Part shown: piece after piece, positions 5,385 to 26,152 of the stretch
How the letters are laid out: each line of letters opens with the position of its first letter
Position numbering within the stretch: the stretch's first letter is position 1
Source: Verrucomicrobiales bacterium
Lineage (GTDB): Bacteria > Verrucomicrobiota > Verrucomicrobiia > Limisphaerales > UBA9464
Assembly: GCA_005793375.1 (NCBI GenBank)
Contig: SXSK01000266.1
Location: 1 to 51,099 of the forward strand
Direction: 5' to 3'
Length of the DNA stretch: 51,099 nt
Notes under the pieces: model-generated
Seen by the model: the letters and a program-made list of their open reading frames with translations, nothing else
Told to the model about the DNA's origin: nothing
The model's database searches: none
Translations under genes and position numbers: made by a program

Positions 5385-5906
5385 ATGACCCACATTCTTC
5401 TCGATGCCGCCGGATTCCAGGAACGTCTCAATTGGCTGGCACACCAGATCGCTCAACGCAATGTCAATGGTGCCGACGTGTTGATCGTCGGAATTCAACT
5501 GGGCGGCGTGCACTTGGCCCAACGACTGGCTTCCAAGTTGAGTGCCCTTTGGAATCGATCGGTGCCTTATGGAGTTTTGGATGTCTCCATGCACCGCGAC
5601 GATCTCGGGAACCGAGCCACCCCCTTAATGCGGCCCACCGAGATTCCCGGGGACCTCACAGGTAAGACGATTCTGCTAACGGACGATGTGATTTTCAGCG
5701 GTCGGACGACTCGGGCGGCGCTCGATGCCTTGAATGACTTCGGTCGACCCAAATGCATTCAGCTAGCAGTGATGGTCGATCGCGGGCATCGCGAATTGCC
5801 CATCACGCCAGACTTTGTCGGATTACCGGTGGAGACTCGCGTGGATCAACGTGTGGAAGTTCTTTTTGTCGAGGAGGCAGGCCGAGACGAAATCCAGTTG
5901 GTCTAG
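5385..5906 (+). CDS. pyrR: Bifunctional pyr operon regulator / uracil phosphoribosyltransferase PyrR
   Basis: PRPP-binding loop ILLTDDVIFSGRTTRAALDAL and MVDRGHRELPITPDFVGLPVET; directly upstream of pyrB. Confidence 0.95.
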   Translation: MTHILLDAAGFQERLNWLAHQIAQRNVNGADVLIVGIQLGGVHLAQRLASKLSALWNRSVPYGVLDVSMHRDDLGNRATPLMRPTEIPGDLTGKTILLTDDVIFSGRTTRAALDALNDFGRPKCIQLAVMVDRGHRELPITPDFVGLPVETRVDQRVEVLFVEEAGRDEIQLV

Positions 5907-5974
5907 CGCTTGAATTGAATCTCTCGACAGACGGTGAATGACGGAGTAGCCCTGTTGAGCCCTCCTATCGCCTT

Positions 5975-6925
5975 ATGCCTCACTCCTGGACTCGCCAACA
6001 CCTGCTGGACCTGCAATCGCTCAGCGCGGACGAGCTGGTGGTTTTGCTAGACACGGCAAGACACTTCAAGCAAGTCGGCGAACGATCCATCAAAAAGGTA
6101 CCCGCGTTGCGCGGCAAGACCATCGTCAATCTCTTTGTCGAACCGAGCACTCGTACACGGATCAGTTTCGAATTGGCCGGACTGCGCCTCAGTGCAGATA
6201 TCATCAATTTCAGCGCCGAATCGTCTTCGTTCAAAAAGGGCGAATCGCTCAAGGATACCGCTCTCAACCTGGAGGCTCTAAATGCCGACTTTATCGTCAT
6301 CCGACATGGCGCCAGTGGGGCTCCACACTTCCTGTCGAGATTCCTAAAGGCTCACGTGGTAAACGCCGGTGATGGCGCTCACGAGCATCCCACGCAAGGG
6401 CTGTTGGACGCGTTCACTATACGCGAAAAGAAAGGACGCATCGAGGGTCTCAACGTGACCATCCTCGGCGATATTCTCTACAGCCGAGTCGCGCGCTCCA
6501 ATATCTGGGCACTCCAAAAACTGGGCGCGAATGTCACGTTGTGTGGGCCTCCTAGCCTGGTGCCGAAGATCTTCGAGGAAATCGGATGCCGGGTAGTCTG
6601 GAACATGGAAGAGGCCTTGCGCGATGCGGATGTCATCAACCTCCTCCGCATCCAGCATGAACGCCAGCGCGCCACCATGTTTCCGAGCATTGGTGAATAC
6701 GCCGGCCTCTTTGGCCTCAACCAGTCTCGGCGACATCTGGTGAAACCCGACGCGTTAATCATGCACCCGGGTCCCATTAATCGAGGTGTCGAAATCGACA
6801 ACACCTTCGCAGATGGGGCGCAATCCGTGATATTGCAACAAGTCACGAACGGCCTCGCCATCCGCATGGCCGTACTTTTCTTGCTCGGCGGCGGGCGTCG
6901 AGAGGAAATTGCCGCGGCGGTGTAA
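5975..6925 (+). CDS. pyrB: Aspartate carbamoyltransferase catalytic subunit
   Basis: FVEPSTRTRISFELAGLRL, GDGAHEHPTQGLLDAFTI, MHPGPINRGVEID. Confidence 0.97.
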   Translation: MPHSWTRQHLLDLQSLSADELVVLLDTARHFKQVGERSIKKVPALRGKTIVNLFVEPSTRTRISFELAGLRLSADIINFSAESSSFKKGESLKDTALNLEALNADFIVIRHGASGAPHFLSRFLKAHVVNAGDGAHEHPTQGLLDAFTIREKKGRIEGLNVTILGDILYSRVARSNIWALQKLGANVTLCGPPSLVPKIFEEIGCRVVWNMEEALRDADVINLLRIQHERQRATMFPSIGEYAGLFGLNQSRRHLVKPDALIMHPGPINRGVEIDNTFADGAQSVILQQVTNGLAIRMAVLFLLGGGRREEIAAAV

Positions 6926-7061
6926 CTATCAGAATCCAGGGGATTTACACCCACAACGCGGCGTGACACCGCGATGACTCCTGCAACGACCCGGTCTGGC
7001 TTTGGGCGCCGCGTTGAACCCTTGAAATATCCCAATTCCACTGTTTTATTGCCACACTCCC

Positions 7062-10000
7062 ATGAGGCTTCAATCTGCGGCCATGTCCTTTTTTGCCCGC
7101 GACTCACGTTGGTTTTACTCAAACCCAACCATTCGGCGAGGGGTACTGAATGTGTTGGTACTGATATCGGCAGTCATTCTAGATCCTTTGACAGCGGCGG
7201 ATATCGACCGGGTTCGAGAAGCAGACTCGGTCCGTAGCGGGTATCGCCCGCTGGTCGCGGCAGATCGGGTAGCTACGCCCATTCTCGCTCCCGCATCGAA
7301 GGAAGGCGAAATCCGGCTCAAACAATTCAAGGTAGCCCCAGGATTGAAAGTCGAGTTGTGGGCCGCTGAACCCATGCTCGCCAATCCAGTAGCGTTCAGC
7401 GTCGATGAACAGGGACGAGTCTTTACGAGCGAAACCTATCGATATCGCTCCAGCGTCCTCGATATCCGCCACTACATGTTCATGCTCGAAGACGATCTGG
7501 CATCCCGGAGTTTGGACGATCGCCTCAAGCAAATTCGGAAATGGTTTGGGCCGGATGGCGAGAGATTGTTGTCGCAGGAAACCGAGGTAATCCGAATGCT
7601 GACCGACACCAACGGGGATGGAAGAGCCGATCAATCGACCGTTTTTGCGGATGGATTCAATTCCCCATTGGATGGCATTGCCTCAGGAGTGTTGGCTCGG
7701 CGGGGGGAAGTTTGGGTGACAGACATTCCCAGCTTGTGGCGGTTTCGGTCGGGCAATGGTGATTCTTCAAGAGACGCGAGCACCGGATTGAAGGTCTCCA
7801 ATCGACTTGCGTCCTCGCCAAGAGCCATGAGGGGTTTCGTCGCCGAAGAATTGCAGCGCGGCTTTGGCGTGCGATTCAGTTTTACTGGGCACGATCTCCA
7901 CGGATTAAAGTTCGGTCCAGACGGACGCTTGTATTTTTCTTGTGGCGATCGGGGCGCGCGACTGCTGACCAAGGAAGGGAAAACCATCGATCTGCCGGAC
8001 GAAGGTGCCGTGTTTCGATGTGAACCAGACGGGTCCAACTTGGAAGTGGTTCACCGCGGACTGCGAAATCCGCAAGAGCTGGCATTCGACGAGTACGGGA
8101 ATCTATTCACAGGGGACAATGATTCCGATCAGGGTGATCGTGAGCGTTGGGTATTGATTCAGGAAGGCGCGGACAGTGGCTGGCGTGTGGGACACCAGCA
8201 TGCGCCGCTTGGCAATGCGGGCATGTGGAACCTGGAACGGCTGTGGGTCCCCCATTTTGAAGGGCAAGCGGCTTACGTGATGCCACCGATCGCGAACCTC
8301 GGGGATGGGCCCAGTGGCATTGTCTATGACTACGCTGGCACGTACTCAGGTTCTCAGCCTCGCACTGGTCTGGCGTCACATGGTGGCCCAGCGCACCGAT
8401 TCCTCATGGCCTATTTCAAGGGAACCAGTGCCAAAAGCGGCATTTATTCCGTCGCGCTCCGCGCGAATGGCGCCGCCTTCGAGCTAGTCGATCACCAGGA
8501 GTTTGTGTGGAACTCGCTGGTGCCGGATGTGGATATCGGTCCAGACGGCGCCGTGTGGTTTGCCGATTGGCACGAGGGCTGGCCCAAGAGCAACAAAGGG
8601 CGAATCTATCGAGCATTCCCCAGCTCGCTGGAAAACGATCCCATAGCCAAGGAGACCCAACGACTTCTGGCGGAGGGACTGTCGCAGCGCGGAGCGGGCG
8701 AGTTGCTAGCCCTACTGACACATCCGGATATGCGCGTGCGGCAGGAAGCTCAATTTGAATTGGCGGCCCGCGGAACCAGTTCATATCCAGGCCTGCGCGA
8801 TGTGGCGCTCACCTCGCCAAATCTTTTCGCACGATTGCATGCCATGTGGGGGATAGGCCAGTTGGCGCGGGTGCTGCCGCTTAATGCCTTTGTCGAAGAA
8901 CTCGCCGCACTCAAGCCATTGCTTTCCGATTCCTATCCAGAAGTGCGTGCGCAGGCAGCACGATTGCTGGGAAGTTCCAAATTACTTTCTGCTGCCCAAG
9001 GAATCGCATCGCTGACGCGGAATTCTTCCGAACGCGTCCGGTTCATGGCATTACAGGCGCTCGGTGATCTGCTTTCGGATCCCCGCGTGGGTCGGGTCAA
9101 TCGATCGGATGGGGGCAGCGCGGGAAAAATGCAAGACACGCCACTCTATGTGGGTTTTGCTCTCCTCAAATCCCAACCGCCAACACCCCAGTTTATTGCG
9201 GCGGGACAGCAACTCTTCAATACTCCGGAGCTGATCGAACGAGCGTTCCAAGTCTCGAGATCGCGTCCGCAAGACTCGAAACTTTTCTCGCTGAGTGCCG
9301 TCGTCGCGGCCCGCCGCATGGAGCACCCCAGCGCCTCTCTTTTTCTTGAATCTCTGGATCCATTGGTACAACTGGAAGCGGCTCGAGCCATCAATGATTT
9401 GCCGATTGTTGGAGCACTCCCAGCATTAGCCGCCATGGGTCAGCCGGGACTGCTCGACAAGTTGCTCCATCAGTTTTCGGCGTTGACTACCGAACTTCAT
9501 CCACCACGGGTCCGGATTTCACCAGGCGCCATTCGGGATGTGCGCGTCGACCAACCCCTGCCCTGGACCAACGCGCCCATCGATCAGTTGGCACCGATGC
9601 TCTTGCGAATCGTCAACGCCAACTTCCGCTTAGGAACCCCTGAAACGGCTGTCCGTCTCGCGGCACTGACGGTTCGCAAAGATCTGCCAGAGCAGATCCG
9701 CTCGGAAGCCGTCTTTGCACTGGCGAGCTGGAGCAAACCTGCTCAGAGGGATCGTGTGACCGGCAATTTCCGGCCACTTGCGGCTCGCGATGCGACGCCA
9801 GCGCGCGATGCCTTGCGGCCCCAACTCGCGGTCTTGTTCGGCCCTGGTTCCTCGGAATTACAAATCGCTGCGGCCGATGCGGTGGCGCGACTCGAGTTGC
9901 GTGAAGCAGCGCCTGAGTTGAAAGCTCTGTTGGGGAACAGGGCAGCCTCGGTATTCGCTCGAGCCAAGGCGTTGCGGTCGTTGGCGATTCTCAAGAGCGA

Positions 10001-10812: not shown

Positions 10813-13800
10813 CTACCAAGGCAACGGCAATGCCGACAGAACCGCGGCGCGCCATTCTTTCGTAGTGGGTTCGGGCGGCAGGCGGAGCCCGGATCGGTAG
10901 TCCACATAGCCTTTGCCTTCCGTGGAGAATCGAATCAACGGCGCCATAAGTTCCGAAGATTCGGTTTGACCGGCGAGCCGTTCTAATGCGACCCGGGCGG
11001 CCTCAACGGATGGGATCTCCAGCAGTTGCAACCGAACCAGGCGCAGACGACCATTAGAGAGTCGCTGCAAATGGAAGCCCAACTGAGGCTGCAAAAGTTG
11101 GCGGGCACCCGGCCCGCGGACGATCAGTCCCTGGATGCGTTGGGCGAGACTGCCCTCCAGGATGGTATAAAGAAATGCGTCGGCATTCGCGGCGAGCTGA
11201 GGCCAGATGGGTTGGACGGAGTATCCCCAGCAGTCCTCCAAGATTTTTCGATACACCTCGGCGCACTGGATGGGGCCGTAGGCTTCATCCGAGGGAATTC
11301 CCTGGAACACCAAGGCAAAGGAGGAGGCGTTGGCGGGACCCTCGATCATGACGTCGAGCAATGCGAGTTCTCGCAGCGAGGAGGCTAGCGGCGAATCCGG
11401 TAATCCAGACGCCTCATCGGGCTCCTGAATATCACGAAGTTCAAATCGAAGCGCTTCGGTGGCCCGCAACGCGTCAGACCTTGGCCGACTAGTGTTTAGT
11501 ATTCGTAATGGCTTTTTGGAGGAACGAGTCAAAGCGGCTTCTGCCAGACCCAGCCAAGCATCCACCTTCTTCATTTGTTCCCGGCAGAAGATGGCGTGGA
11601 CTTGTTCCGCGGAAAGCTGACCCAAATCGATCCGGCCCGCGGGTGCTGTGGCGTCGATTCGATTCTCCAGTACGTCCAATCGATCGCGGATAGCGTCGAG
11701 AAGCTGGGCCGCCGTTTTGCCACCTGCAGATTTGCGTTGAGCCCACAACGGGATGTGATCACTCCAAAAAGCTGTCCTGGTCGCGGGCAGAATAGGTTGC
11801 AGCTTCAAACCGAAAGCGTCTCCGTCAAAATGAAACTCTAATCGTGTGGGAGCGCCGGGCGGAATCGCCACAAGTCGTTCGGCGAGTGGTTGAGCCAATT
11901 CACGTTCCACCACCCGCTTGAGCGCCCGGGCGCCGAGTTGAGGGTGGTGCCCCAACTCCACCAAACGCGCGATCGCCGCCGGTGTGACCTCGAGCAGACA
12001 TTCCCGTTGCCGGAGTCCTTGCCGACTGAACACGCCTGAAATTAGGGTGTTTGCTATCTGTTCCAGGTGCGACCGTTCGAGGGATTGAAACGCAATGACG
12101 CGATCCAAGCGGTTGAAGAATTCGGGTCGGAAGAATTTTTCGGCGGCACCTCGATACGTGTCCTCAATACGGACAACATCAGTGTGAAATCCGGGAGTGT
12201 TGCGAGCCTCACGCACACCGAGGTTGGACGTGAGCAGGATGACCGCGTTGGTGAAATCGGCGACGCGGCCGAGGGAATCTGTAAGACGGCCTTCATCGAG
12301 GACACCCAATAATAGATCGAAAACTTCTGGGGCAGCCTTCTCAATTTCGTCGAAAAGCACCACCGAGAACGGCTGTCGTCTCAGGGCACTGGTGAGAAGC
12401 CCGTCCGGCTCGCGTGGTATTCCAACGAGTCGAGTGACGGCACTGGCATGCACATACTCATTCATGTCGAAGCGAAGCAATCGTTGGGTGGAACCAAAAA
12501 GGAATGTGGAGAGTGCTTTGGCTGATTGCGTTTTGCCAACCCCCGTCGGACCGAGCAATAAAAAGGTCGCCAAGGGACGCGCCGGATCGTTTAAGCGCGC
12601 TTTCAATACACTGACGGTATCGGCGAACGCCTCGAGGACGTTGGGCTGTCCTGCGATTTCGCGACCTAGTGCTTCGACCACCTCACGACGAGTCAAGCCC
12701 GTACGCGCATCGAGCAATGCCAGTCGAAGTCCACTCTGCTGTCTAAATTCATCCAAGGTTTCGTTTCGTCCCACCCGGCCACCAGCGGCTCGGGTTGCCA
12801 GACGTCTCAAGAACCCTGCCGCCTTCCCTGGAAAGGCGGCGTCCCGCACAAATCGGCGATGCAAATCCACCGTTATCGGTACGACCTCAGGCGACATTTC
12901 ACAACGATGCTGCGATTCCAGGTCACGGGAGAAGGCGATCAGCACTTTCCAGGTATCTCGCAGGGAGGATTCATGCACCGGCAAGACCTGGAACAGATCG
13001 GCGAAGGCTCGATCCCGTTCGCGGAATACCCGCAAGGCTTCGTGTGTCATTTCGCCAAGGAACCGGACCGATCGTTTTTCGAGAAATGGCTTAAGAACGG
13101 CAGCGACGTTGAGATCACTGGCAGCGCTGATACCGGCGCTGAACAAGCCCAGGAGGTCGTCGACATAGAGGATCGCGTCACGCGTGGCGATATGGTCGAG
13201 GATGGCGAGAACACGATTTTCCCATTGGCCAAGGACACTCATACCGCTGATGAGGCGCATCGGACTGACCTGCCATATCACACGAGGTGCCGAGTCGAAT
13301 TCTTCTGGAGAAACCACCGAACCATTGGGCGCGGGTCTCAGTGACGAATTGCTGGGGGTACTTTCTCGACGATGTCGTCGTGCGGTTTCCAGGCGCCGAA
13401 TTGCCTCATGGATCAGTGCGGTTTTCCCAACCTTGCGTGGGCCCACGAGGAGGATGCTCCGGCGATCGTGTGCCGAGAACAGTCGCAACAATTCGGCTAC
13501 CTCGGTATCGCGGCCAACGGCGCGATCGAGATCCTCTGGATAGAGATCGTTCAGACGGTGCCCGATACGGCTCAGTTCCGTGGCGCCATCCATCGGTCCC
13601 TCCTCCTCATCGCCGAAAAGAACGGCAAACTTAGATTTCTTAGCTACCTGAATTTTCGAGGAAGGCTCGATGGAAACCTCCATCGATGCCAGGCGAACTT
13701 TGCCCTGCAAGATGAGTGTGTTTAGGTCTATGAGGATACCCGCCTTTTCCTGAGCTCTTAGGTGACTCGTGATCACCTGAGTCGCACGCTCCTCAAGCGA

Positions 13801-14181
13801 TTGGCCTTGGCCGACTTCAAAAACTTCAAGGGGAAGGGATGGTGTGACGTACAACATTCGGCCCAAAGCGGCCCATCCCATCAGCACGAAACGTCTCAAG
13901 GCGGTGGTGGACTTCAATTCAATGCGTAGCTCCAACGTGGTCTCGTGCAAACTGGGGGCATTGGTCCAGGCAGCCAAATCGTCGTGGCGTGGTGCCTTAC
14001 CGATTTCGGAAAGATGCTTCTGCACGGCAGCATTGAGACGATTTAGGACGCGAGCCAATTTGGGACCGCGCTCGCGGATGGTTGGGTGGAATACCGGTCG
14101 CACATCGAATACCACCTCCGAACCACGGCCCGTGAGTTCCTCGATCAGAATGGGAATCGTGAGGGTCATGTCACCGTTCAC
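10813..14181 (-). CDS. Clp/Hsp100-like AAA+ ATPase (copy A) with C-terminal PCRF-like (release-factor) region
   Basis: D1 LLVGPRKVGKTALI and DAILYVDDLLGLF; D2 LLLGPTGVGKTQSAKALSTFLFG, SVVLFDEIEKAAPEVFDLLLGVLDEGRLTD, LLTSNLG, LGARALKRVVERELAQPLAE; C-terminal LLDVMIEGPANASSFALVFQG...IQGLIVRGPGARQLLQPQLGFHLQRLSNGRLRLVRLQLLEIP. GTG start at 14181 or ATG at 14169. Confidence 0.9.
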   Translation of the reverse strand: MNGDMTLTIPILIEELTGRGSEVVFDVRPVFHPTIRERGPKLARVLNRLNAAVQKHLSEIGKAPRHDDLAAWTNAPSLHETTLELRIELKSTTALRRFVLMGWAALGRMLYVTPSLPLEVFEVGQGQSLEERATQVITSHLRAQEKAGILIDLNTLILQGKVRLASMEVSIEPSSKIQVAKKSKFAVLFGDEEEGPMDGATELSRIGHRLNDLYPEDLDRAVGRDTEVAELLRLFSAHDRRSILLVGPRKVGKTALIHEAIRRLETARRHRRESTPSNSSLRPAPNGSVVSPEEFDSAPRVIWQVSPMRLISGMSVLGQWENRVLAILDHIATRDAILYVDDLLGLFSAGISAASDLNVAAVLKPFLEKRSVRFLGEMTHEALRVFRERDRAFADLFQVLPVHESSLRDTWKVLIAFSRDLESQHRCEMSPEVVPITVDLHRRFVRDAAFPGKAAGFLRRLATRAAGGRVGRNETLDEFRQQSGLRLALLDARTGLTRREVVEALGREIAGQPNVLEAFADTVSVLKARLNDPARPLATFLLLGPTGVGKTQSAKALSTFLFGSTQRLLRFDMNEYVHASAVTRLVGIPREPDGLLTSALRRQPFSVVLFDEIEKAAPEVFDLLLGVLDEGRLTDSLGRVADFTNAVILLTSNLGVREARNTPGFHTDVVRIEDTYRGAAEKFFRPEFFNRLDRVIAFQSLERSHLEQIANTLISGVFSRQGLRQRECLLEVTPAAIARLVELGHHPQLGARALKRVVERELAQPLAERLVAIPPGAPTRLEFHFDGDAFGLKLQPILPATRTAFWSDHIPLWAQRKSAGGKTAAQLLDAIRDRLDVLENRIDATAPAGRIDLGQLSAEQVHAIFCREQMKKVDAWLGLAEAALTRSSKKPLRILNTSRPRSDALRATEALRFELRDIQEPDEASGLPDSPLASSLRELALLDVMIEGPANASSFALVFQGIPSDEAYGPIQCAEVYRKILEDCWGYSVQPIWPQLAANADAFLYTILEGSLAQRIQGLIVRGPGARQLLQPQLGFHLQRLSNGRLRLVRLQLLEIPSVEAARVALERLAGQTESSELMAPLIRFSTEGKGYVDYRSGLRLPPEPTTKEWRAAVLSALPLPW

Positions 14182-17100
14182 CCCCGATGGCGCGGATACG
14201 CCGCGCCAATCGTTCTTCGATCAAGATTCGAAGAATTTCGTCGATAAATTCCCCATTCCAGGGGCGCTTGCCCAGAGTGGCGTCCTCGACAAATTCTTGC
14301 CGAAGATCGAAGGCGCGACACCGGTTGGCGTGAAACGTGGCGATGCCTCGAGTTTTTTGAACAATTGCCGGAGGATGGTACTCCTCGAAGCCAGTTGGTT
14401 GGACCTGGACAAGCACATGCACCTCTGGGTCACTCCCCAGGATGGAGTTCAGTCCATGTTCTTCTTGAATCAGCGCCCACAGCAACGGGCCGCGGGCTTG
14501 GAAAACCACTCCCGAGATTTCCTGCCAAGGCAACGGCTTGAGTTTTTGCCCGGAAGACACTGTGGGGGGCTTTGGCATGGATTGGCCCTCTTCGACAGTC
14601 GTGAGGGTTTTCGATAGTTCGCGCAACAGCACCGGGGGAGTGTTCGTCGAAAAGCGGTCGTTTGGGTCGTCCATTGCATGACGGGATAGGGTCATGGTCT
14701 TCGATCGTGAATGGGTCGTGGAGGAAGGGGTGAAGTAGGCAGCGGCAATCAACTCCCCGTGAGTGTTCAGTAACCGGCCATAAGCGGTCGCGAACGCGTG
14801 CATAGAATGTCGGGGCTCGGCAACGATGGCGAGGACGACATCATCCGGCCGGTCGAACATGAGGCGGAGGATCCATCGTTGAAGTCGGCAGTGTTCGGTG
14901 GAGAGGGTGTTGAGATGAGACGAGAGCGATGAGCCTGAGAACGGGGTTTCCTGGGCGTAGGAAGCTAGCAAATAATCGCTCTCCAATTCTTGCGCGGCTT
15001 GTATATGGGTATCCACGGCGGCGATGCATTGGTGCAACTCGGGCAGACGAGCGACACGTTCCTTATCGGCTGGAGCAGATCCACGTTTTCGAACCAACGA
15101 CTTTTTAAGCGCTTCGAGCAGACTCATTTGGTTCTCGATGGCCCGAACCTCGGGTGAGTGTCGCAATCGGGCGGCTTGACGGCGATAACGGGTTAGGTCG
15201 GCGACGCCATCGTATGCCGTTGGGGATCGCTTAGAGGCAGGCGCCTTTCCGCACAGTGCGACCGATAGTTTGCCTGCCTGAATCGAAACCGTAGCCGCCA
15301 CTGGCGCTGTTTCTTCATACCCATTGAGCGCTGCGGCCAGTGGCGCAACAAACTCTTGCTCCATTCGACGCTTGAGCGGACGCGCCCCATAACGGACATC
15401 GTAACCGCGGATAGCCAAGTGTTCGACAACCTCTGGACTGATATCCAACGTCACTGATCGCTGAGCTAGGCCATCGCGTTTGAGAACGAGATCCATCTGT
15501 CTCCGGGCAATGGCCATGACAACCTCCTGGGGCAACGGGGCAAACGGCAAGATCGAATCGAGTCGATTGTAGATTTCAGGCCGTAGGAACTGGCGCACCG
15601 CATCCGCAAACGGTTCTCCTGTCGCCGAATTCGAAGCCGCGCCAAAGCCGCTGGGACCACGTCGCACCGATTCCGCACCGAGGTTCGACGTCATAACAAT
15701 CACCGCATTGCAAAAGTCGGCGACACGTCCTGAGGCATCCGTCAGGCGTCCCTCACCGAGGATCTGGAGTAAGAGATCAAAGAACGAAGCATCGGCTTTT
15801 TCGAATTCATCCAGGAGTAGAACAGAGAACGGTTGTTCGCGAATCCGTGCGGTGAGGAGTCCTTCTGGAGAACCCGCCCCCAAGCCGCCGATAAGTCGCT
15901 GGACCGACATCACATCGCTGAATTCGGACAGATCAAATCGGGCAAGCCGGTTGGCATCTCCGAACAAAAAATTGGCCAAGGAACGTGCCAATTCTGTTTT
16001 GCCAGTGCCAGTGGGACCGATGAGCAACAGGGAGGCCAGCGGACGGCGCGGCCGCGCCATACGGGTTTTGATGAGCACTAGGATATCCAACACGCGGTTC
16101 ACGGCTGCGGTTTGTCCAATCACGCGTTGCGCGAACCACTCCCGCGCGACTTCCAGATCCAGCACCGTTTCATCGTCCAGCAGGACAGTCGGCAAGCCGG
16201 TTTCCCGTGAGAATCCACGGATGACCTCGGCAACGGTCAGGTTTTTTTGAGGATGAGCGTCGGCGAGGAGTTGTTTCAGAAATCGGACGGGGCGTCCTGG
16301 GTTGGCCGAGTAAGTCGCGTAGCGGGCGTGCAGGCGGTACAACCAATCCAGGGCTTCCACGGGTTTGGAACATTCCGGTCCGGGGGCATCCATCCAGAGC
16401 TTACCCAAAATTTGACGCAGTGACTCAGGAGTAGGCTCCTGGATTTCTTGAACCACAAACGCGTTGATGAGATGTGGGTCCCGCTGTCGCAGCGCGCCAA
16501 GTTGGGAAGGAGTGCATTCGGCGATGATCACAACCTCTCCTCGAGCCAACCAGGGGCGAATGAAGCCGGCGACACTTTGCCCGCCGCGCCCCAAGCGACC
16601 GACTTCCTGGAGTTCGAAGAGCGACCCGATATGAAGGATCGCACGAGCTCGAGACAGTTCCTGGCACAGTTGCTGGCAACGTTCCTGCCACATGCCAAAA
16701 CCGACCTGACCCCGCATGAGACGTGAGCCCGCGGTAGTCCAGAACGTCGTGTGAGCGAATCCATGGGCAGCCCGGTTTCGCGCGAGTTCCTGAACCATTG
16801 CCGTTTTCCCGCAACCCGGTGGTCCGACGAGCAGCACGCTTCGAGGGCGCGAGCTGGAGAGTAGGGCTACCAGGTCACCCAGCGCGGTTTCCATTTCATA
16901 GGCAATCGGTACTTGGGCAGCTCGCCACCGGGCTGCGGTGGCCCTTCGGAACGGAGGCATTTCATCCGCCAGACTCGAGAGCACCGATGTGGGCTTCTTG
17001 GATTGTTCCGAAGTCAGTTCGATTTCTCGCGGTTCCGGCAGATGCGCCGATACCGAGACTTGCCCCAGTCGAATCGCATCCACGCGTTGGACGGTTTGGA

Positions 17101-17557
17101 GGAGCGAGAGTGTGAGGCGTTTGTGTCGGCTAATAAGCACCAGACGGATGTGGGCGCGGACGCGATCCATCAGGAGCTCAGGACGGTGTGCCATCACTTG
17201 GATCCCCAACTCGGGGACAAAGGCATGAAACAGATCCTCCCGTTCAGCCCAGCGAACCACGGCGAAAGTCAACACAGCCGTTTTCTCCCAGTCGGGTGAG
17301 CGTTTGGGTGGTTCGAATTCCACAATCACCGAGTCGATTTCTGCCTGAATAGCCAGGCGACGCCGATACATCGACGCGGCGGGGCATAATTCCGGGTCTG
17401 ACAACAAAACTTTGGCCTTCTGGCAGAACAACCGCTCAGCCGATTCTGCGGAATCACCCACCGCAGAAATCTCTGAAAATCCCAGTCCATCCACCAATTC
17501 CGTGCCGTCCTCATAACTGCGGCGGACAGTGATAATCGTAATTACGGGATCTGGCAT
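14171..17557 (-). CDS. Clp/Hsp100-like AAA+ ATPase (copy B), tandem paralogue, divergent release-factor-like C-terminal region
   Basis: D1 LLVGPPGCGKTAMV; D2 LLLIGPTGTGKTELARSLANFLFG, SVLLLDEFEKADASFFDLLLQILGEGRLTD, MTSNLG, YDVRYGARPLKRRMEQEFVAPLA. Overlaps the GTG start of copy A by 11 nt. Confidence 0.9.
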   Translation of the reverse strand: MPDPVITIITVRRSYEDGTELVDGLGFSEISAVGDSAESAERLFCQKAKVLLSDPELCPAASMYRRRLAIQAEIDSVIVEFEPPKRSPDWEKTAVLTFAVVRWAEREDLFHAFVPELGIQVMAHRPELLMDRVRAHIRLVLISRHKRLTLSLLQTVQRVDAIRLGQVSVSAHLPEPREIELTSEQSKKPTSVLSSLADEMPPFRRATAARWRAAQVPIAYEMETALGDLVALLSSSRPRSVLLVGPPGCGKTAMVQELARNRAAHGFAHTTFWTTAGSRLMRGQVGFGMWQERCQQLCQELSRARAILHIGSLFELQEVGRLGRGGQSVAGFIRPWLARGEVVIIAECTPSQLGALRQRDPHLINAFVVQEIQEPTPESLRQILGKLWMDAPGPECSKPVEALDWLYRLHARYATYSANPGRPVRFLKQLLADAHPQKNLTVAEVIRGFSRETGLPTVLLDDETVLDLEVAREWFAQRVIGQTAAVNRVLDILVLIKTRMARPRRPLASLLLIGPTGTGKTELARSLANFLFGDANRLARFDLSEFSDVMSVQRLIGGLGAGSPEGLLTARIREQPFSVLLLDEFEKADASFFDLLLQILGEGRLTDASGRVADFCNAVIVMTSNLGAESVRRGPSGFGAASNSATGEPFADAVRQFLRPEIYNRLDSILPFAPLPQEVVMAIARRQMDLVLKRDGLAQRSVTLDISPEVVEHLAIRGYDVRYGARPLKRRMEQEFVAPLAAALNGYEETAPVAATVSIQAGKLSVALCGKAPASKRSPTAYDGVADLTRYRRQAARLRHSPEVRAIENQMSLLEALKKSLVRKRGSAPADKERVARLPELHQCIAAVDTHIQAAQELESDYLLASYAQETPFSGSSLSSHLNTLSTEHCRLQRWILRLMFDRPDDVVLAIVAEPRHSMHAFATAYGRLLNTHGELIAAAYFTPSSTTHSRSKTMTLSRHAMDDPNDRFSTNTPPVLLRELSKTLTTVEEGQSMPKPPTVSSGQKLKPLPWQEISGVVFQARGPLLWALIQEEHGLNSILGSDPEVHVLVQVQPTGFEEYHPPAIVQKTRGIATFHANRCRAFDLRQEFVEDATLGKRPWNGEFIDEILRILIEERLARRIRAIGGER

Positions 17558-17617: not shown

Positions 17618-18907
17618 TCAACGGCCGAAGATTCGGTCGAAACCGCGCCAGGTGGCAGGATTCAATTGGCGCACAGCGCGGCGAACTTTTTGCATGCCCG
17701 GCAGCGCGGTCTCTCCGGCACGCTCCAAGTCGTATTGAAAGAGAAAACCGATACTATGCGCCCCTTCAGTCTCTCCCCGAATGGCATCAAACCCATAGCC
17801 GTAGCCGATCAAGAGATGCAATTTGTTGTTGGGAGAAGTCCACCCGAATGCGCCTCCAGCACCAGAAAGATGTCTTACATTAAGTTCCAGCCCAGTCACG
17901 TAATCGACCCATGCGGTGGAACCAACGAACATGAACTCAAAATTCTTGCCCAGCGGAAAACTGTAGTTGCCATTGAGTAGCACAAAACGTTCGCCACTGA
18001 TTTCTTGGAAGTAATAGCCTGGAATCATTAAGGGAAACTCGGAAGCCAGCGGCAGCGCGCCTCCCAGCCGATAAGCACTGAACCGATCGCTCTGAATGGA
18101 AGTCCCACCGGTGATGCTTGCCTCGATGTGCATGCCGTTCTTGAAGCCGTACGCCATTAAGGCGCGACCCCAGAAAAGGTGAGATTGAGATTCGATTTCA
18201 CGATCGCCCTGATAGCCATACGCCGGTGTGTCCGTACGGAATTGCCCCTCATACCAAGCACTCAACTCGAACGCTTGAGCTACTTGCATAAGGGGTTCCC
18301 GTCCACCCCAACGCAATCCAGCCCTCACTTCGCCTTGAAGCTTGTCCTCAGGTACAACAAATCCCGGATTCGTTTCGTCGTCGCGTGAATAAAACGAATA
18401 CCGCATCGACCCACGGAGTATGGCCTGCAGCGGAATTTCCCAGAGACTGGTTGGAATAGATCCGGGGGGCAACGGATTGAACCTATGATAAACTGCCATG
18501 GTTGTTTCGGCCCCATGCCCAGTGAAGGACTCTTCGCGGAATAATTTGCCGCGCCGGATCTCAAAATAGCTGTCAGCAAAGCCACCCCCGGCGATGCCGA
18601 CACCGACATCTGTTGCGGGCCCCAATGCATCGGCGACGCCGAGTTCGGAATCGAGGTACGTGGGGGCCACCACCAGCCGCATCGTCCAGTTCGTACGAAT
18701 AAACCCTGGGTGATTGTGGTAATAGAACGCGTAAGCGCCCAGCGGGCCGCGTCCTTCAATCGGTTGATTGTATCCCAACTGGATGAGCTGACGTGCTACC
18801 GGATCTATCTGCGCCTGGAGCCGCTCCCGCATTAAGAACATCGACCACAAGAAACCGCAGGTCAGCAACAGTTTCTTGAGTAAACCACCTCTTATGGGAT
18901 CAAGCAT
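17618..18907 (-). CDS. Hypothetical outer-membrane beta-barrel-like protein
   Basis: ATG at 18907 gives a signal-like N-terminus (LLKKLLLTCGFLWSMFLMRERLQAQ). Alternating hydrophobic/aromatic strands follow. The longer ORF (to 19168) overlaps the Nif3-like gene and is unlikely. Confidence 0.65.
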   Translation of the reverse strand: MLDPIRGGLLKKLLLTCGFLWSMFLMRERLQAQIDPVARQLIQLGYNQPIEGRGPLGAYAFYYHNHPGFIRTNWTMRLVVAPTYLDSELGVADALGPATDVGVGIAGGGFADSYFEIRRGKLFREESFTGHGAETTMAVYHRFNPLPPGSIPTSLWEIPLQAILRGSMRYSFYSRDDETNPGFVVPEDKLQGEVRAGLRWGGREPLMQVAQAFELSAWYEGQFRTDTPAYGYQGDREIESQSHLFWGRALMAYGFKNGMHIEASITGGTSIQSDRFSAYRLGGALPLASEFPLMIPGYYFQEISGERFVLLNGNYSFPLGKNFEFMFVGSTAWVDYVTGLELNVRHLSGAGGAFGWTSPNNKLHLLIGYGYGFDAIRGETEGAHSIGFLFQYDLERAGETALPGMQKVRRAVRQLNPATWRGFDRIFGR

Positions 18908-18915
18908 TCGAAGCG

Positions 18916-19677
18916 TCACAAGCCTGAAGGGTGATCCACAAAACTCCAGGGCACGCGAAATTTCCTCGATAGGGATGCCGCCAAGGCTTTGACACCGAAC
19001 GTTTCGGTTGCGTAGTGGCCTCCATAAAAAATATTGATCCCCAACTCTTCCGCCAAAGCGTGAGTCCAATGAGGACCTTCCCCCGTGACGAATGTGTCCA
19101 CGCCCTCCGCAGCCGCCAGTTTCAATTGAGACCCCGCGCCCCCGGTGCAGACCCCAATTTTTCGGCACTCAACTCCACCGCCGGCAAGTAGCGTCACTGA
19201 CCCACCCAGTATTGATGCAAGTCTCTGATGCAATAGCTCACGTGGGATTCGGGCGGAAAACTGCCACCCAATCGACTGCCCTTTGTCATGAAAAAAGGGC
19301 CTCAACTTGGTCCCACCTAACGCCCGAGCGAGCACGGCACAATTGCCAAGGCGAGGGTGCGCATCCAAGGGCAGGTGTTGCGAGTAAACAGCCAAATCGT
19401 GGTCCAGCAGACATCGCAAAAGTTCGTATCGCCGACCCGTCCACGGATGGGTGGGCGCCCAGAAAAGGCCATGATGAACGATCAAGAGATCCGCCTTTGC
19501 GTCGATGGCTTTGCGAACTGTGGCCAGCGAAGCATCCACCGTGGCAACCATCCGGGAGACGCCTCGGCGATTCTCGACCTGAAGCCCATTCACGGCCCCG
19601 TCATAATCCTTGAAGTGTTCTGGCGAAAGCTGCTGGTCGCAAAACCGGACGATGGTATCGAGTGGGATGGGTGTCAT
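18916..19677 (-). CDS. Nif3-like dinuclear metal center hexameric protein (DUF34)
   Basis: DYDGAVNGLQVENRRGVSRMVATVDASLATVRKAIDAKADLLIVHHGLFW...DTFVTGEGPHWTHALAEELGINIFYGGHYATETFGVKALA. Confidence 0.95.
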   Translation of the reverse strand: MTPIPLDTIVRFCDQQLSPEHFKDYDGAVNGLQVENRRGVSRMVATVDASLATVRKAIDAKADLLIVHHGLFWAPTHPWTGRRYELLRCLLDHDLAVYSQHLPLDAHPRLGNCAVLARALGGTKLRPFFHDKGQSIGWQFSARIPRELLHQRLASILGGSVTLLAGGGVECRKIGVCTGGAGSQLKLAAAEGVDTFVTGEGPHWTHALAEELGINIFYGGHYATETFGVKALAASLSRKFRVPWSFVDHPSGL

Positions 19678-19748: not shown

Positions 19749-21605
19749 TCACCACCCGTCGGCAAGGCCTTCGACCCGGGGATCATGAGCTCCGATGAAC
19801 ACTGCGGACGCGCCCAGGCCACGTTGACCCACGGCTTGCGTGGCCCCGAGCGCCTCGACCCGTTTCAAACGATGTCCGCGCCGCGCGAGTTCCTCCCGAA
19901 TGGCTTCCGGGATGCGTCGCTCAAGGATCAACTCATCTGGACGCCATTGCTGGTGAAAACGGGGTTGCGCGAGAGCTGTACTTGGGTCGGCGCCGAAATC
20001 GATGACTTGAATGATGGCGAGCAAGGTTTGTGAAATAATGGTTGGCCCCCCGGCGGCACCAAGACTGAGAATGGGTCGGCCATCTTTCAAAACGATCGTG
20101 GGCGACATGCTGGACAGAGGACGTTTTCCCGGAGCAACCGCATTGGCCTCGGCACCTACCAATCCAAACGCATTGGGAGCGCCGGGTTCCGCAGAGAAAT
20201 CATCCATCTCATTGTTCAGCACCATTCCAGTACCTGGCACGACCACCTTCGACCCAAATGTTGTGTTGATCGTTGACGTGATAGCCACCCAATTCCCCTG
20301 GGCATCGGCTGTCGAGAAGTGGGTTGTATGTTTGGAATCTGGGGCTGTAAACGCGCCCTCCATCACGCGTGGAAACACATCGCGGCTCGATTTAGGGGGC
20401 GTGTGGTAGTTGGTCACCGCGAGAGTGCGATCGAGTCGAATCGAGCGAGCGAGCGCCGCAGCATAATCACGATCTATCAGCCCGCGCGGAACTCGAGTAA
20501 AATCGGGATCGCCCAACCAATGAGCGCGATCTGCGAACGCCAGTTTCATGGCCTCGGCCACGACGTGAATAGTGTCGGCCGAACTATCCCCAAGGGCGCG
20601 CAGGTCGAAATGTTCCAGGATATTTAGGATCTGGCCAACATGAATGCCGCCCGAGCTGGGAGGTGGAAACCCGATGATCTCATGTCCGCGATAGGTCGTC
20701 CGGATGGGCTCTCGCACTTTGACATGATAAGCAGCCAAGTCCGCGGCATTCACCAGTCCGCCATTGTTTTGCATCCATTCTGAGATTCGGTGCGCGAAGT
20801 CACCCCGATAAAAGTAGCTTGATCCCTCTCGGGCCAGGTTGCGATGGGTCTGCGCCAAATCGGGTTGCCGCAGGATTTCGCCCCGGATCCATCGCGAACC
20901 ATCCGGCTTCAGAAAGAGACGGCGGAATTCAAGGAACGGCTCCGGAGCCAACTTTTCAATTTCTTGAAGCGCGCCTTGGAGTCGTCCTTCGTAGCTGCGG
21001 GTGATGACGAATCCGTCGGCGGCGACACGTGCGGCTTGTTCCAACGCCCGAGACAGGGGTAGCCGCCCGAATTTCGAGCTGACAAACGCGAGCGCGGCGA
21101 GCTGCCCAGGAACTCCCACTGCCAACGCACCGTGCTGGCTCAACGCGGGGACGGCACGCCCGTTTCGTCGGTACATATCTCGGGCCGCCGCCGCCGGAGC
21201 AGTTTCGCGGCCGTCGACGGCGATTACCCCCCCATTCGCAAGACGTACCACCAGGAAACATCCGCCACCGAGGCCGGAGTTTTGTCCATCGACCACTCCC
21301 AGCATTAGTGCGGCAGCAACCGCAGCGTCTATGGCATTGCCGCCTTGCTTGAGTGCGTCGACACCCGCCTGAGTAGCGATGGGATGAACCGTGGCCACAA
21401 TGCCATTGTGGAATTCGGAAGCTCTTGGGATGGTTGTACCACAAAGGATCAAAACCCAATACCAGGCGAATACCGCCAACCGTACTGGAGCGTTCAACCG
21501 CGCTCCAAGGTGGTAAAGACCGCACGGGTGCGGTCGGGTACTCTGTAAAGAGCTTCGCGCCTGGCCGCTTGGAGACAAGGCGTGAGATTCGGCGCGGCAG
21601 TTCAT
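19749..21605 (-). CDS. ggt: Gamma-glutamyltransferase
   Basis: GGNAIDAAVAAALMLGVVDGQNSGLGGGCFLVV; catalytic Thr region SKHTTHFSTADAQGNWVAITSTINTTFGSKVVVPGTGMVLNNEMDDF; PLSSMSPTIVLKDGRP. ATG at 21605 gives an ATGA overlap with the upstream gene. Confidence 0.93.
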   Translation of the reverse strand: MNCRAESHALSPSGQARSSLQSTRPHPCGLYHLGARLNAPVRLAVFAWYWVLILCGTTIPRASEFHNGIVATVHPIATQAGVDALKQGGNAIDAAVAAALMLGVVDGQNSGLGGGCFLVVRLANGGVIAVDGRETAPAAAARDMYRRNGRAVPALSQHGALAVGVPGQLAALAFVSSKFGRLPLSRALEQAARVAADGFVITRSYEGRLQGALQEIEKLAPEPFLEFRRLFLKPDGSRWIRGEILRQPDLAQTHRNLAREGSSYFYRGDFAHRISEWMQNNGGLVNAADLAAYHVKVREPIRTTYRGHEIIGFPPPSSGGIHVGQILNILEHFDLRALGDSSADTIHVVAEAMKLAFADRAHWLGDPDFTRVPRGLIDRDYAAALARSIRLDRTLAVTNYHTPPKSSRDVFPRVMEGAFTAPDSKHTTHFSTADAQGNWVAITSTINTTFGSKVVVPGTGMVLNNEMDDFSAEPGAPNAFGLVGAEANAVAPGKRPLSSMSPTIVLKDGRPILSLGAAGGPTIISQTLLAIIQVIDFGADPSTALAQPRFHQQWRPDELILERRIPEAIREELARRGHRLKRVEALGATQAVGQRGLGASAVFIGAHDPRVEGLADGW

Positions 21606-24600
21606 TGGTGCGAGACATTGACGGAGAGTCGATACCACGTCGAATCAAGATCTCGAGGTGTATCGAGGACGCGGTGTTCGCGGGTTTTGGATTCGGGTTC
21701 GAACTGTCTCCACGTCTCCCAAGCATCGTCGTGAACCCTACGGCGCTGGATGGTGTGTCTGCGATTCGACACTCCGATAAAACTAAATTCGAGGGACCCA
21801 TCAGCAGTCAACCCCGCCCGGAGGATCGGCAGGCTAGACGCATCCCTCGGATCGGTACCTGCGATGTACTCGGAGAAGTTTGTCGACCCATCGCCGTCCA
21901 AATCGGCATCGGCATCGGCCGCGTTCGGATTTGTTCCAACGACCAGTTCCCAATCGTTTGGCATTCCGTCGCCGTCGTCATCCAGCGCGGCGATGTTCCA
22001 ACTCACACCCGGCGTCGGAGGACCGACTGTCCATGCACGTGGCTCCGACACTGGAATTGACAATGAAACGCGTTGCAACGAAGACCCCGCGCCGTCCGCT
22101 GTCGAGGGCCATGGCGATGAGTCCTTGTATACCATCGAAAACACGTGGAACCCGGCCGGATGTTTGAACGTGAGCGCTTCCCCCGAGTTGGAGAGTCGTC
22201 CTCGGTAACTTCCACTGACCCGGACGCCGGGATACGTCGCAGTGAACTGTTCCGGGTTGGCCACAATCAGGAAGACGCCCCCAGGAAGCAGCGTGGTATT
22301 GTCTCGAAAAGTGAACTCAACACCCTCGGTGATGCGAACTCCGTCAAGTTGGAGGGGAATTGTCCCGGTGTTAGTGCACTCTATAAACTCAAATTCATCA
22401 CCGTCGATACCATCGATATCGGCGGGGTGATAATGCACTTCGGTCAATTGCAAGGCGGCGTAATCCTGGGGGACAAAATAGTCGACTTCGAGTAACGGAC
22501 TCCATGTGGTCCCGGAGCGAATTCGCGTCTTGATCCGGGTGTGGCTCGATACGGGTATCGGTGTTTCGTAGGTTTTGGCCGTCTGGGCGATAGCCCCGCC
22601 ACTCTGGCGCGGGTCCGATCCGTCCGTCGTGTACAGAATCGAACCGCTATTGTTTCCATTCCGAAGTGACGCGGCAAAGCCCGCGCTGACCAATCCTGGC
22701 GGTTGGTCTACAAGCGGAGCACCGAGGGATGGGAACAAATTCGCGTTGCGAAGTTTGCGCAACGCAATGGCAGTATTAGTCGGGAAATAGACGGTGCGCA
22801 TCCAGTTGAGATGGGTCATCCATTCCACGTGGCGCAGATAGGGTTTGGAAGCGCGTTGATAGTCCCCCCAGCGGGCGCTTTCCGCGACGACGGCTCGATC
22901 CACTTCGGCAATTCGCCGGTTCCAAAGGGCTAGCGTGTTGCTCGGCGTGAGAACGCCATTGTTGAAAAGGTGTTTCTGGACATGATCCGCAAAGCGGAGC
23001 CGAAACTCCGGGTTGGCCCGACATCGCGCGTAAACATAAGCCGGCGTGTTGGGTGCACCCACGTCCACAACCCGAGCCCCCCAGGACGTGTGGCTTTTAA
23101 TGATCGAATTATTGGAGATTTCCTGATCCCACGCGAAGAAGCGGAAGCCAGTGCTCTCCGATCCTCGACGTCGAGCCGCCCACCAATTGTGATTGGGCCA
23201 ATCATCTGCCGTGATGAAAATGTGGAGCAGCATGTAGTCGATCAAGTTGTCGATATCCACCATTACCTCGAGTGCTGGATTTCGAGTCCCGTCGGCGTTG
23301 CGTCCGAGTAGACGTTGGTAATTGACTGGCACGGACAGATCCGCAGAGGCGAGGGTCATCAGTCGATTCCAGGATGCGGCATCGCCCTGTTTAAGTTCTG
23401 CAAAATCTGCCATGACGTCATACTCTTCTTCGCGTCCACCAAAATGCAGTGCGTTGAACTGGCTATCGTTTCGTTCGCAAAGATTGTAGAGACCCCAATA
23501 GATTCCATTTAAATAGAGATGCGCAAAGGTACCGTGGCTTGATCCTTGCCCCATCGCTAATTGCAGGTCTTTGACGTATTGCTCACGGATATAGCTGGCA
23601 TCCTTCCGGTACCATCGCTTCTGCCCGTCGACCAATTGATCCCACTCGACGCTTGGCCAAGTATCCGTGGATCCTGCCCTCACGATCAACCAATCGAAGC
23701 CGGTCGCGGTGGTGTCTGGAAAGATCGGATAGTCGAGTTTGGGTGGGCCGTATCGGCTGCGAAAAATGACGCTAAATCCGTGCTTCGGAGTAAAACTTTT
23801 GTTTCTGGAAATGCCACCGTGAATACGCAATCCAACATTGTGTTGGAAACCCTGCCGCCCATCGGAATAGATCCATTCCATGCTCGCCGCACGCTCCCAG
23901 GCATCCCCTTGATTGCCCGAATTCACATAGATGCCTTGAGAATTGCCAAACAGCCCCGATTGTGGCAGGACCACGCTTAAGGTCGGAATGGAAGTCAGCG
24001 CATTGGTGAATTCGTAGCCTGGCTCGGCGCCATTCACGACACGCGAGTCCACCAGAAAATCAGCCGGGTGTCCACCCGGCCAAGTGGAACCAACGCCAAC
24101 CGGACGTTTTTGCGATGCCACGGCTCCTGGAAAAAGGTAGGTCCGGGTCCGAAGTGTGCTGGGAGCGTGGTCCGTCCGAAAGCCGGCCGCGCGAACAATG
24201 GTGGTGGTGGCTATCGGGATTGCGTTGTTTCCTTTCTCCAGCCGCGCGCCGTTTGTCAGCGAGGGTTCGCTGCCGTCGAGCGTGTAAACAATGGTCGCTT
24301 CCGGCGTGGGGCAGGTCATCCGCAATTCGAATGGTTGCGTAAACAGGCCGTGATCGACGCTGAATTGAATGTCCTCGACGAGACCAACAACCCCGGGTCC
24401 GTTGGGGGCTCCGGGAGACGCTGAGCTAAAAAACCGGGCACCCAGATGACGCCCGAGAGACAGTTGAGGTTGGATGAGAAAGCTGGGGTCCGTAGCAGTG
24501 CGGTTGAGACCATGGATTGCCAAGATATTGTCACCCGGCTTGAGTAGACCCTGGGCAACGATTTCAAATTCCTCAGGAACCGTTGACTCACCCGGAGCTC

Positions 24601-26152
24601 TCGAAACAGTCGCCGCCGAATTGTGGGTGAGAGTTTCCGGGGCATTGCGTCGAGTGATCTCCACGCCGTTGATTGAGGCAACCAATCCATCGTTGTACCG
24701 CAGCCTCAATCGCATGAAATCGAAGGCCTCCGGGTCTTTCACTTGAAAGGGAATTCGCAGCCATACCGAACTGTTGACTCCAAGGGCAGCGCTCGCAATG
24801 TCGGTCGATATCATTCCCTTCAGTTCCCGCAGGTCCATGGGAGAGGCCCCTGCCGCAAGTGCGACAATCTGGCTTGGGGCCAAAGCAACACTCCAGATCG
24901 AGAGGTCATCGATCAGTCCCTGGTACCCGCCGCTCCCGGTGGGGTTATTAGCTCCAAGGAAGAAACTGCGGATGGGTTTCAGCGGATCCGTGTTCGTACC
25001 TTCCAGCAGGAGTCGACCATTCTGCCAAATCTGTTTGGTGATGCCTTTCTTGACGAACACGTAGTGATTCCAGGCACCTTTCCATTGGGTCGAGTCGGGT
25101 TCGGCGATCGAGACCCGTTGACGCGAGGTGTCGCAACAACCGGTGTCCCAGTAAATGACCGAATCGCCCCAGGGTAAGTGCACATTCAAAGAGCGTTCAC
25201 CACCGCCGTCGGTCTGGCTGCCAGCCCAGAAGAGGAACTGATTGGCAGGCTGTGTCGATGCACCCCGGATCCACAAACTGACCGTTATAGCGTTGCTCGC
25301 AACGGCCCCGTTGAACGCTCCCGTTGTGGCGTGTGGAACCGTCATGACCCCAGTGCCGCCAAAGTTGAGCGCCCGGTCCCCGACCTGCCCGGAAAACCCG
25401 CTCCCGACGGACGTGTAGGGCGCTCGTGTCAGGGATCCATGATACGCGCCACCACTGAGTTCCCAGGCGCGTGTGGCGCTACTGGCATCGTTGAAGTCCC
25501 AGTAGGCCAACAGGCCTGCGACATCGTTGGTGGATTGATCCCACCCAATGCTCGCTGTGCCCGGTGTCCAATCCGTGTCCTCAAATTCAGGCTGACCGCC
25601 CGTCCAGACTAAACCAGCGTGTTTCTTACTGGGGACCAAAAATATTGCAGGTCCATTGGTGGTGACCAGTAAGGCCTCAAGTTGCGCTTGGCCAAGTCCT
25701 TGGGACCAATCCCGTCGCTGTGGTCCAAACGAAATATCCGACACCCGCGTGGCACCGTCCGGCTTCCAAAGGACCAACCGGTCGCCCTCGGCTTGGAGTG
25801 TGAAGTCGGTGTGAAACGGAAGTCCAGGGGTGGATCGATTTTTACCGGAGGCGAACAGCACCCATCGGGCGCCTGGAAGTAAGTTAGTGGATCCCAGAAT
25901 CCAAGGCTCTCTACCTGGGGCTCCGTTTCCCAACCGCCAATCCGTGAGGTTCACTGTCTGCGTGCCGAAATTGTGAAGTTCGATCCAGTCGGGACTATCC
26001 CCGTCTTCATCCCGAAGGGTTTGGGTATTGCTGGCCATCCATTCGGTGATCCGAATTTGTGCACAACTCCAAAGTGGAGCCCACAAGAGACCCAAGAGAC
26101 AAAACCAAAGGAACCATCGGGATGTCACAGCAGGCATGATATCACCGAACAC
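21602..26152 (-). CDS. Large secreted CotH kinase family / lamin-tail / LamG-like protein (1516 aa)
   Basis: Signal sequence; LTD ITEWMASNTQTLRDEDGDSPDWIELHNFG; LamG-like region; chitobiase-C-like ATIVYTLDGSEPS; CotH region NGIYWGLYNLCERNDSQFNALHFGG; C-terminal DDDGDGMPNDWELVVGTNPN. Confidence 0.88.
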   Translation of the reverse strand: MFGDIMPAVTSRWFLWFCLLGLLWAPLWSCAQIRITEWMASNTQTLRDEDGDSPDWIELHNFGTQTVNLTDWRLGNGAPGREPWILGSTNLLPGARWVLFASGKNRSTPGLPFHTDFTLQAEGDRLVLWKPDGATRVSDISFGPQRRDWSQGLGQAQLEALLVTTNGPAIFLVPSKKHAGLVWTGGQPEFEDTDWTPGTASIGWDQSTNDVAGLLAYWDFNDASSATRAWELSGGAYHGSLTRAPYTSVGSGFSGQVGDRALNFGGTGVMTVPHATTGAFNGAVASNAITVSLWIRGASTQPANQFLFWAGSQTDGGGERSLNVHLPWGDSVIYWDTGCCDTSRQRVSIAEPDSTQWKGAWNHYVFVKKGITKQIWQNGRLLLEGTNTDPLKPIRSFFLGANNPTGSGGYQGLIDDLSIWSVALAPSQIVALAAGASPMDLRELKGMISTDIASAALGVNSSVWLRIPFQVKDPEAFDFMRLRLRYNDGLVASINGVEITRRNAPETLTHNSAATVSRAPGESTVPEEFEIVAQGLLKPGDNILAIHGLNRTATDPSFLIQPQLSLGRHLGARFFSSASPGAPNGPGVVGLVEDIQFSVDHGLFTQPFELRMTCPTPEATIVYTLDGSEPSLTNGARLEKGNNAIPIATTTIVRAAGFRTDHAPSTLRTRTYLFPGAVASQKRPVGVGSTWPGGHPADFLVDSRVVNGAEPGYEFTNALTSIPTLSVVLPQSGLFGNSQGIYVNSGNQGDAWERAASMEWIYSDGRQGFQHNVGLRIHGGISRNKSFTPKHGFSVIFRSRYGPPKLDYPIFPDTTATGFDWLIVRAGSTDTWPSVEWDQLVDGQKRWYRKDASYIREQYVKDLQLAMGQGSSHGTFAHLYLNGIYWGLYNLCERNDSQFNALHFGGREEEYDVMADFAELKQGDAASWNRLMTLASADLSVPVNYQRLLGRNADGTRNPALEVMVDIDNLIDYMLLHIFITADDWPNHNWWAARRRGSESTGFRFFAWDQEISNNSIIKSHTSWGARVVDVGAPNTPAYVYARCRANPEFRLRFADHVQKHLFNNGVLTPSNTLALWNRRIAEVDRAVVAESARWGDYQRASKPYLRHVEWMTHLNWMRTVYFPTNTAIALRKLRNANLFPSLGAPLVDQPPGLVSAGFAASLRNGNNSGSILYTTDGSDPRQSGGAIAQTAKTYETPIPVSSHTRIKTRIRSGTTWSPLLEVDYFVPQDYAALQLTEVHYHPADIDGIDGDEFEFIECTNTGTIPLQLDGVRITEGVEFTFRDNTTLLPGGVFLIVANPEQFTATYPGVRVSGSYRGRLSNSGEALTFKHPAGFHVFSMVYKDSSPWPSTADGAGSSLQRVSLSIPVSEPRAWTVGPPTPGVSWNIAALDDDGDGMPNDWELVVGTNPNAADADADLDGDGSTNFSEYIAGTDPRDASSLPILRAGLTADGSLEFSFIGVSNRRHTIQRRRVHDDAWETWRQFEPESKTREHRVLDTPRDLDSTWYRLSVNVSHQ

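Follow-up and report, generated by a model that had tools for sequence, protein, structure and literature searches.

Two adjacent AAA+ genes and their third paralogue

The window, the whole stretch of 51,099 nucleotides analysed here, carries two adjacent genes on the minus strand, each encoding a two-AAA protein that resembles the Clp/Hsp100 family and ends in a tail derived from a release factor. Gene B, the first of the pair (14171–17557, minus strand), encodes 1128 residues, and gene A, the second (10813–14181, minus strand), encodes 1122 residues; by their coordinates, the open reading frames overlap by 11 nucleotides. Both frames, and the C-terminal segments quoted from them in a preliminary description of this DNA, are present in the sequence. 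The proposal in that description of two AAA modules per gene with a Clp-type D2 is borne out by Pfam, with P-loop AAA matches over D1 of both proteins, and AAA_2 and ClpB_D2-small matches at E = 3e-38 and 1e-12 in B and 4.9e-44 and 4.8e-12 in A. The best NCBIfam relatives of A and B are ClpB and ClpA, at scores far under the cut-off, and Pfam, NCBIfam and PADLOC hold no model for either protein as a whole.

The N-terminal regions of B (residues ~1–214, 16916–17557) and A (residues 1–214, 13540–14181) contain no named domain and were delimited from the alignment, in B as the remainder upstream of D1. The ClpN (R) domain was sought here, and Clp_N is not among all 16 Pfam families of A or among the 25 matches listed for B. 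The D1 module follows at residues 215–467 of A (12781–13539) and ~215–470 of B (16148–16915). Across the family alignment, which includes a third paralogue, C, described below, D1 retains Walker A. Its Walker B reads DD in A, and G, D or E followed by a variable residue in B and C, with a degenerate HIGS in the window's B, and the Walker B DE signature of an active D1 is absent from A, B and C. The D2 module with its small domain was placed by Pfam and motif alignment at residues ~500–771 of A (11869–12684), and lies at residues ~471–744 of B (15326–16147), where Walker A, Walker B, the arginine finger and sensor 2 are intact; in the family alignment these four motifs are ~98–100% conserved. 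The D2 pore loop is shortened in A and B and lacks the conserved aromatic residue (GYVG), for which C has a variable L or W, and threading by D2 is therefore uncertain. At the ClpP-docking position of ClpC, the family alignment contains an xGF loop. Scored as [LIV]-G-[FL], this loop has its glycine in 100% and its phenylalanine in 83–90% of sequences, and its first residue is L, V or I in ~79% of A sequences and variable in B and C. ClpP was found in the window's genome and in 7/7 other genomes checked.

The same A/B pair occurs in three further genomes among the relatives searched (58 with the A tail, 56 with the B tail), and in those three loci a third AAA+ gene without a tail, C, lies directly after A. 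The C gene of the window's genome (G000:C287, ~5685–8111; L003:1396–3822, minus strand) encodes two AAA modules and no release factor tail, and is unlinked to A and B, at an interior position of a different, 20-kb contig. Scanning genome contigs with a profile of the A D1 module identified 69 loci in Verrucomicrobiota, Planctomycetota, Acidobacteriota, Myxococcota and a few other groups, and most loci with enough flanking DNA, from at least four phyla, have the order B-A-C. Tails measure ~340–460 residues in B, 290–440 in A and ~40 in C. With the same profile, the family was found in 3/291 Verrucomicrobiota genomes, the window's own included, and in 32/248 genomes of a Planctomycetota sample at E ≤ 1e-30, 18 of these at ~6e-50 or better. 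In a tree of D2 sequences, A, B and C form separate supported clades within the Verrucomicrobiota-Planctomycetota-Acidobacteriota group. The first and third Myxococcota genes fall beside B and C, joined by weakly supported forks, and the second has an A-like tail (hhalign, 98.3%). By these sequences, A, B and C are an ancient, co-inherited set of AAA+ paralogues.

Clustering of flanking open reading frames recovered just the three AAA genes, antisense frames and a few lineage-specific genes as conserved neighbours, with no translation, rescue or protease gene among them. The window gene at 17618–19168 and the outer neighbours are not common to other loci. In two Gemmataceae loci, a gene between B and A (L110:4826–6682 and L119:4315–6171) clusters with a protein-kinase-like frame of locus L128. 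Three acidobacterial loci (L143, L145 and L146, ~7413–9704) encode tail-less two-AAA proteins of ~760 residues, whose D2 sequences place them in the tree with ClpC and not with A, B or C. The N-terminus of C (L024:9085–9723, minus strand, and other C sequences) may be HicB-like, but its best PDB match, TTHA1756, reaches just E = 0.065 and Pfam gives none; were the likeness true, a toxin-antitoxin-type fold would head a Clp subunit. Elsewhere in the window, at the edge of the contig, a sequence reading suggests a helicase-like gene of SNF2 type and, after it, a gene for a charged coiled coil (54–2847); the two may belong to a larger cluster truncated where the contig ends. Two proteins of 1516 and 1700 residues (21602–26152 and 42469–47571) are very large, look secreted and have a CotH/lamin-tail-type likeness by eye.

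Release factor ancestry of the C-terminal tails

Both A and B continue for ~365–395 residues beyond the end of D2. Annotation of single sequences would miss the nature of this region, because the lone window tails give no PCRF match in Pfam and no release factor match in NCBIfam; identity of the A and B tails to release factors is only ~10–15%. Profiles built from the family give a clear signal. When the whole PDB was searched with hmmsearch, a profile of 48 B tails matched RF2 at 2.4e-7 and RF1 at 4.3e-7, and 35/35 PDB sequences passing E = 0.005 were RF1 or RF2. A profile of 33 A tails matched RF2 at 3.5e-4, and its best 14 matches were all RF2. In hhalign comparisons with 49 RF1 and RF2 sequences, for which E-values refer to single comparisons whereas those of the PDB and Foldseek searches are database-wide, the pooled tails scored 97.1%, B 96.7% and A 69.6%, against 0.1–2.1% for reversed-alignment controls. 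The A tail is linked to the release factor family chiefly via B and via a single-gene class, D, described below (97.5–97.8%). The bridging comparisons gave 97.5% for A with D, 97.6% for B with D and 98.5% for D with release factors, with reversed controls at or below 2.1%.

The likeness follows the release factor domain by domain. The helical segment of B (residues ~781–899, 14861–15217), corresponding to domain 1, aligns with RF2 residues 3–157 in the PDB profile match, and that of A (residues ~809–947, 11341–11757) is likewise included in a PDB profile match to RF2; both are helical in AlphaFold models. The helical part of A has no significant match to release factors when taken alone. The PCRF-like region, or domain 2, lies at residues ~906–1053 of B (14399–14842; hhalign without the helices 91.7%, Foldseek RF2 5e-7) and ~954–1056 of A (11014–11322; Foldseek RF2 4e-6, within the PDB profile match given above). 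A coiled-coil artefact is ruled out, as PCRF and domain 4 alone still match release factors in hhalign once the helical part is removed. The alignment of B to RF1 (1RQ0) runs through the PCRF motif G..A.....E.G.H, passes over the GGQ domain and picks up again at the domain 4 motif R.Y....v.D, which in B falls within residues ~1079–1124 (14186–14323). The A consensus reads VxGxxAxxLxxxExGTHLF and then RxYxxxxxxxDxRTGL, the latter represented in the window by a domain-4-like C-terminus with D.RSG (residues ~1082–1116, 10834–10938), modelled as strands and a helix. Domain 4 (R.Y....v.D.R.G) is thus kept in the tails by both consensus and alignment. The preliminary description had proposed a PCRF-like region; PCRF is indeed present, but the likeness is not to PCRF alone, with domain 1 before it and domain 4 after it.

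The predicted folds lead to the same family. AlphaFold models of the tails have a pLDDT of 82 and pTM of 0.81 for A, and a pLDDT of 85 and pTM of 0.77 for B. Foldseek returned 29 matches below 0.001 for A and 28 for B, every one an RF1 or RF2, where the absence of a PCRF fold or a match to an unrelated fold had been named beforehand as grounds for abandoning the idea. TM-scores are modest, at 0.24–0.43 by query length, in line with what domain movement and a missing domain would produce. PDB profiles, hhalign and Foldseek therefore agree on the homology to class-I release factors, a helical domain followed by PCRF, that had been suggested from the sequence, and the C-terminal part of each window protein is a diverged class-I release factor (RF1/RF2).

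Parts lost from the release factor and a single-gene relative

The domain skipped in the alignments is the catalytic one. Domain 3, which bears GGQ, has been excised from the A and B tails, and the A consensus runs directly from PCRF to the domain 4 motif. In a reference set of release factors, GGQ was found in 49/49 sequences, PxT/SPF in 47/49 and AGxGGxEA in 36/49; PxT/SPF (after GxH) and AGxGGxEA occur in 0/106 tails, and the string HTS in 2/106 tails versus 46/49 release factors. Such GGQ strings as occur in the tails are few and fall within helical, PCRF-helix or D2 segments, outside release factor domain 3. These counts and the alignment confirm the earlier impression that the tails lack both the GGxEA loop and GGQ. 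With PxT/SPF, GxGGxEA and the GGQ domain gone, stop-codon reading and peptide release by the known release factor mechanism are not expected. The surface that binds the ribosome may have been lost as well, as the two best-known contacts of release factors to the decoding centre and stop codon (the recognition tripeptide and HTS) are missing. Ordinary RF1 and RF2 are encoded in 10/10 host genomes tested, and the tails are therefore an addition to these factors and not a replacement for them.

When 38 relatives were searched with the Pfam PCRF model, all ordinary release factors were recovered, along with one further match above the cut-off, in a long AAA+ frame of genome G006. This frame represents class D, in which a single gene encodes HEAT repeats, a pair of AAA modules and an entire RF2-like tail that lacks GGQ (loci L055:7147–10644, L163:7553–11092, L164:2916–6593 and L165:6889–10611). 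In the PDB profile search, the D tail matches residues 27–369 of E. coli RF2 at 5.2e-13; the domain 3 region is retained and GGQ is lost. As judged by sequence, the D tail is RF2-like and much less degenerate than the A and B tails. Class D is found in 6/50 genomes of the window's family, and a search with the D tail matched ordinary genes of release factor length in 71/390 genomes of the phylum. Among the genomes tested for both, a small sample, none has D together with B-A.

Possible functions and comparison with known systems

We lean slightly towards a three-paralogue Clp/Hsp100 machine in which the release factor-like tails dock at the ribosome, a step that we infer, and the motor pulls on a substrate. 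A, B and C may co-assemble into a mixed ring, as their co-inheritance suggests. D1 would bind ATP and act as a poor or regulatory ATPase, leaving D2 as the motor. The GGQ-less tails could anchor the ring in the ribosomal A site whatever the codon there, much as Dom34 does in archaea and eukaryotes with another release factor fold, and the motor could then pull a nascent chain, a ribosomal protein or a jammed factor at that site, with the substrate possibly passing to ClpP. A more specific version is possible but doubtful: a ribosome quality-control unfoldase whose tails, as codon-blind, GGQ-less release factor mimics, enter the empty A sites of stalled ribosomes so that either the nascent chain or some jammed component is extracted, possibly into ClpP. 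If the tails still bind ribosomes, a ribosome-aimed motor exists in several large phyla, and a Cdc48-like step in bacterial ribosome quality control becomes testable.

The main rival, to which we give a substantial though lesser likelihood, is that the release factor-derived tails work off the ribosome, as a module for oligomerisation, regulation or substrate adaptation in a disaggregase or unfoldase that is ordinary in other respects. All tails have lost GxGGxEA and the tripeptide that reads the codon and keep structural core motifs alone, which fits such reuse, as does the finding that flanking-ORF clustering places no translation genes nearby; the A tails have also diverged further than the B tails. 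However, the full three-domain scaffold is kept in two paralogues, in several phyla and in the separate lineage D. A pure linker would not need a complete three-domain scaffold. Even without ribosome binding, the family is a clear case of reuse of a release factor scaffold after deletion of the catalytic domain, with D keeping the domain but not GGQ.

Compared with a ribosome-docked machine, a role in defence or conflict, as an inhibitor or remodeller acting on translation when phages attack or bacteria are in conflict with one another, is improbable. The patchy spread in Verrucomicrobiota is compatible with horizontal transfer, and PADLOC matches exist, but these cover the AAA domains only and none is to a full-length defence model. 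Flanking-ORF clustering detected no recurrent defence neighbours, so the suggestion in the preliminary description of a conflict system finds no conserved defence-gene link in the neighbourhoods of homologues. The broad congruence of the A, B and C clades in the D2 tree also argues against it. Carriage as mobile-element cargo was considered and rejected: the plasmid and phage matches listed include no near relatives and are ordinary Clp-type proteins at ~28% identity or less. Chance or compositional likeness of a coiled-coil and alpha/beta region to release factors, which the silent single-sequence Pfam searches and low identity might have suggested, is highly improbable and, for the family, refuted, as blind PDB sequence and fold searches put RF1 and RF2 uniquely on top, reversed controls fail and class D spans the whole length of RF2.

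The sources searched describe no bacterial AAA+ unfoldase with a release factor domain, which suggests that the machine is undescribed. A review of bacterial ribosome rescue mentions neither ClpB, AAA nor these phyla, and the open-licence literature yielded nothing relevant on PCRF with ClpB, ClpA or AAA. In a systematic release factor survey, bacterial release factor paralogues are built around the GGQ domain, and the passages searched name no bacterial fusion of Clp or AAA+ to a release factor (PMC6514570). According to the same survey, prfH/RFH and ArfB are, like the A and B tails, bacterial paralogues of release factors, and serve in specialised rescue; they keep the GGQ domain and have lost other parts, whereas the A and B tails have lost the GGQ domain (PMC6514570).

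The A and B tails share with RF1 and RF2 the order of domain 1, PCRF (domain 2) and domain 4. Unlike those factors, the A, B and D tails are fused to a Clp motor, A and B having had the GGQ domain cut out and D having lost GGQ itself; they lack PxT/SPF and GxGGxEA, and their hosts retain the ordinary pair. With ClpA, ClpB and ClpC (Hsp100) the proteins share two AAA modules and intact D2 motor motifs, and an xGF loop, of variable first residue, sits at a ClpC-like position. They differ from these in a novel N-terminal region, a degenerate D1 Walker B and a non-aromatic D2 pore loop, in forming three co-inherited paralogues, and in the release factor tails. The fold of Dom34/Pelota is unrelated to that of bacterial release factors, and its partners are Hbs1 and ABCE1, with no fused Clp motor. 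As described in the survey, it resembles the tails as a release factor paralogue that lacks the catalytic GGQ, and it serves stalled ribosomes (PMC6514570). The same survey describes eukaryotic ribosome quality control, where Vms1-Cdc48 likewise couples a release factor-family protein to a two-ring AAA+ motor, but with an aeRF-1 fold, as separate proteins, and with Vms1 acting as a peptidyl-tRNA hydrolase, unlike the GGQ-less A and B tails (PMC6514570). Should the motor act on stalled ribosomes in the more specific way proposed above, a single machine would combine the counterparts of Dom34 and Vms1-Cdc48, with a bacterial fold.
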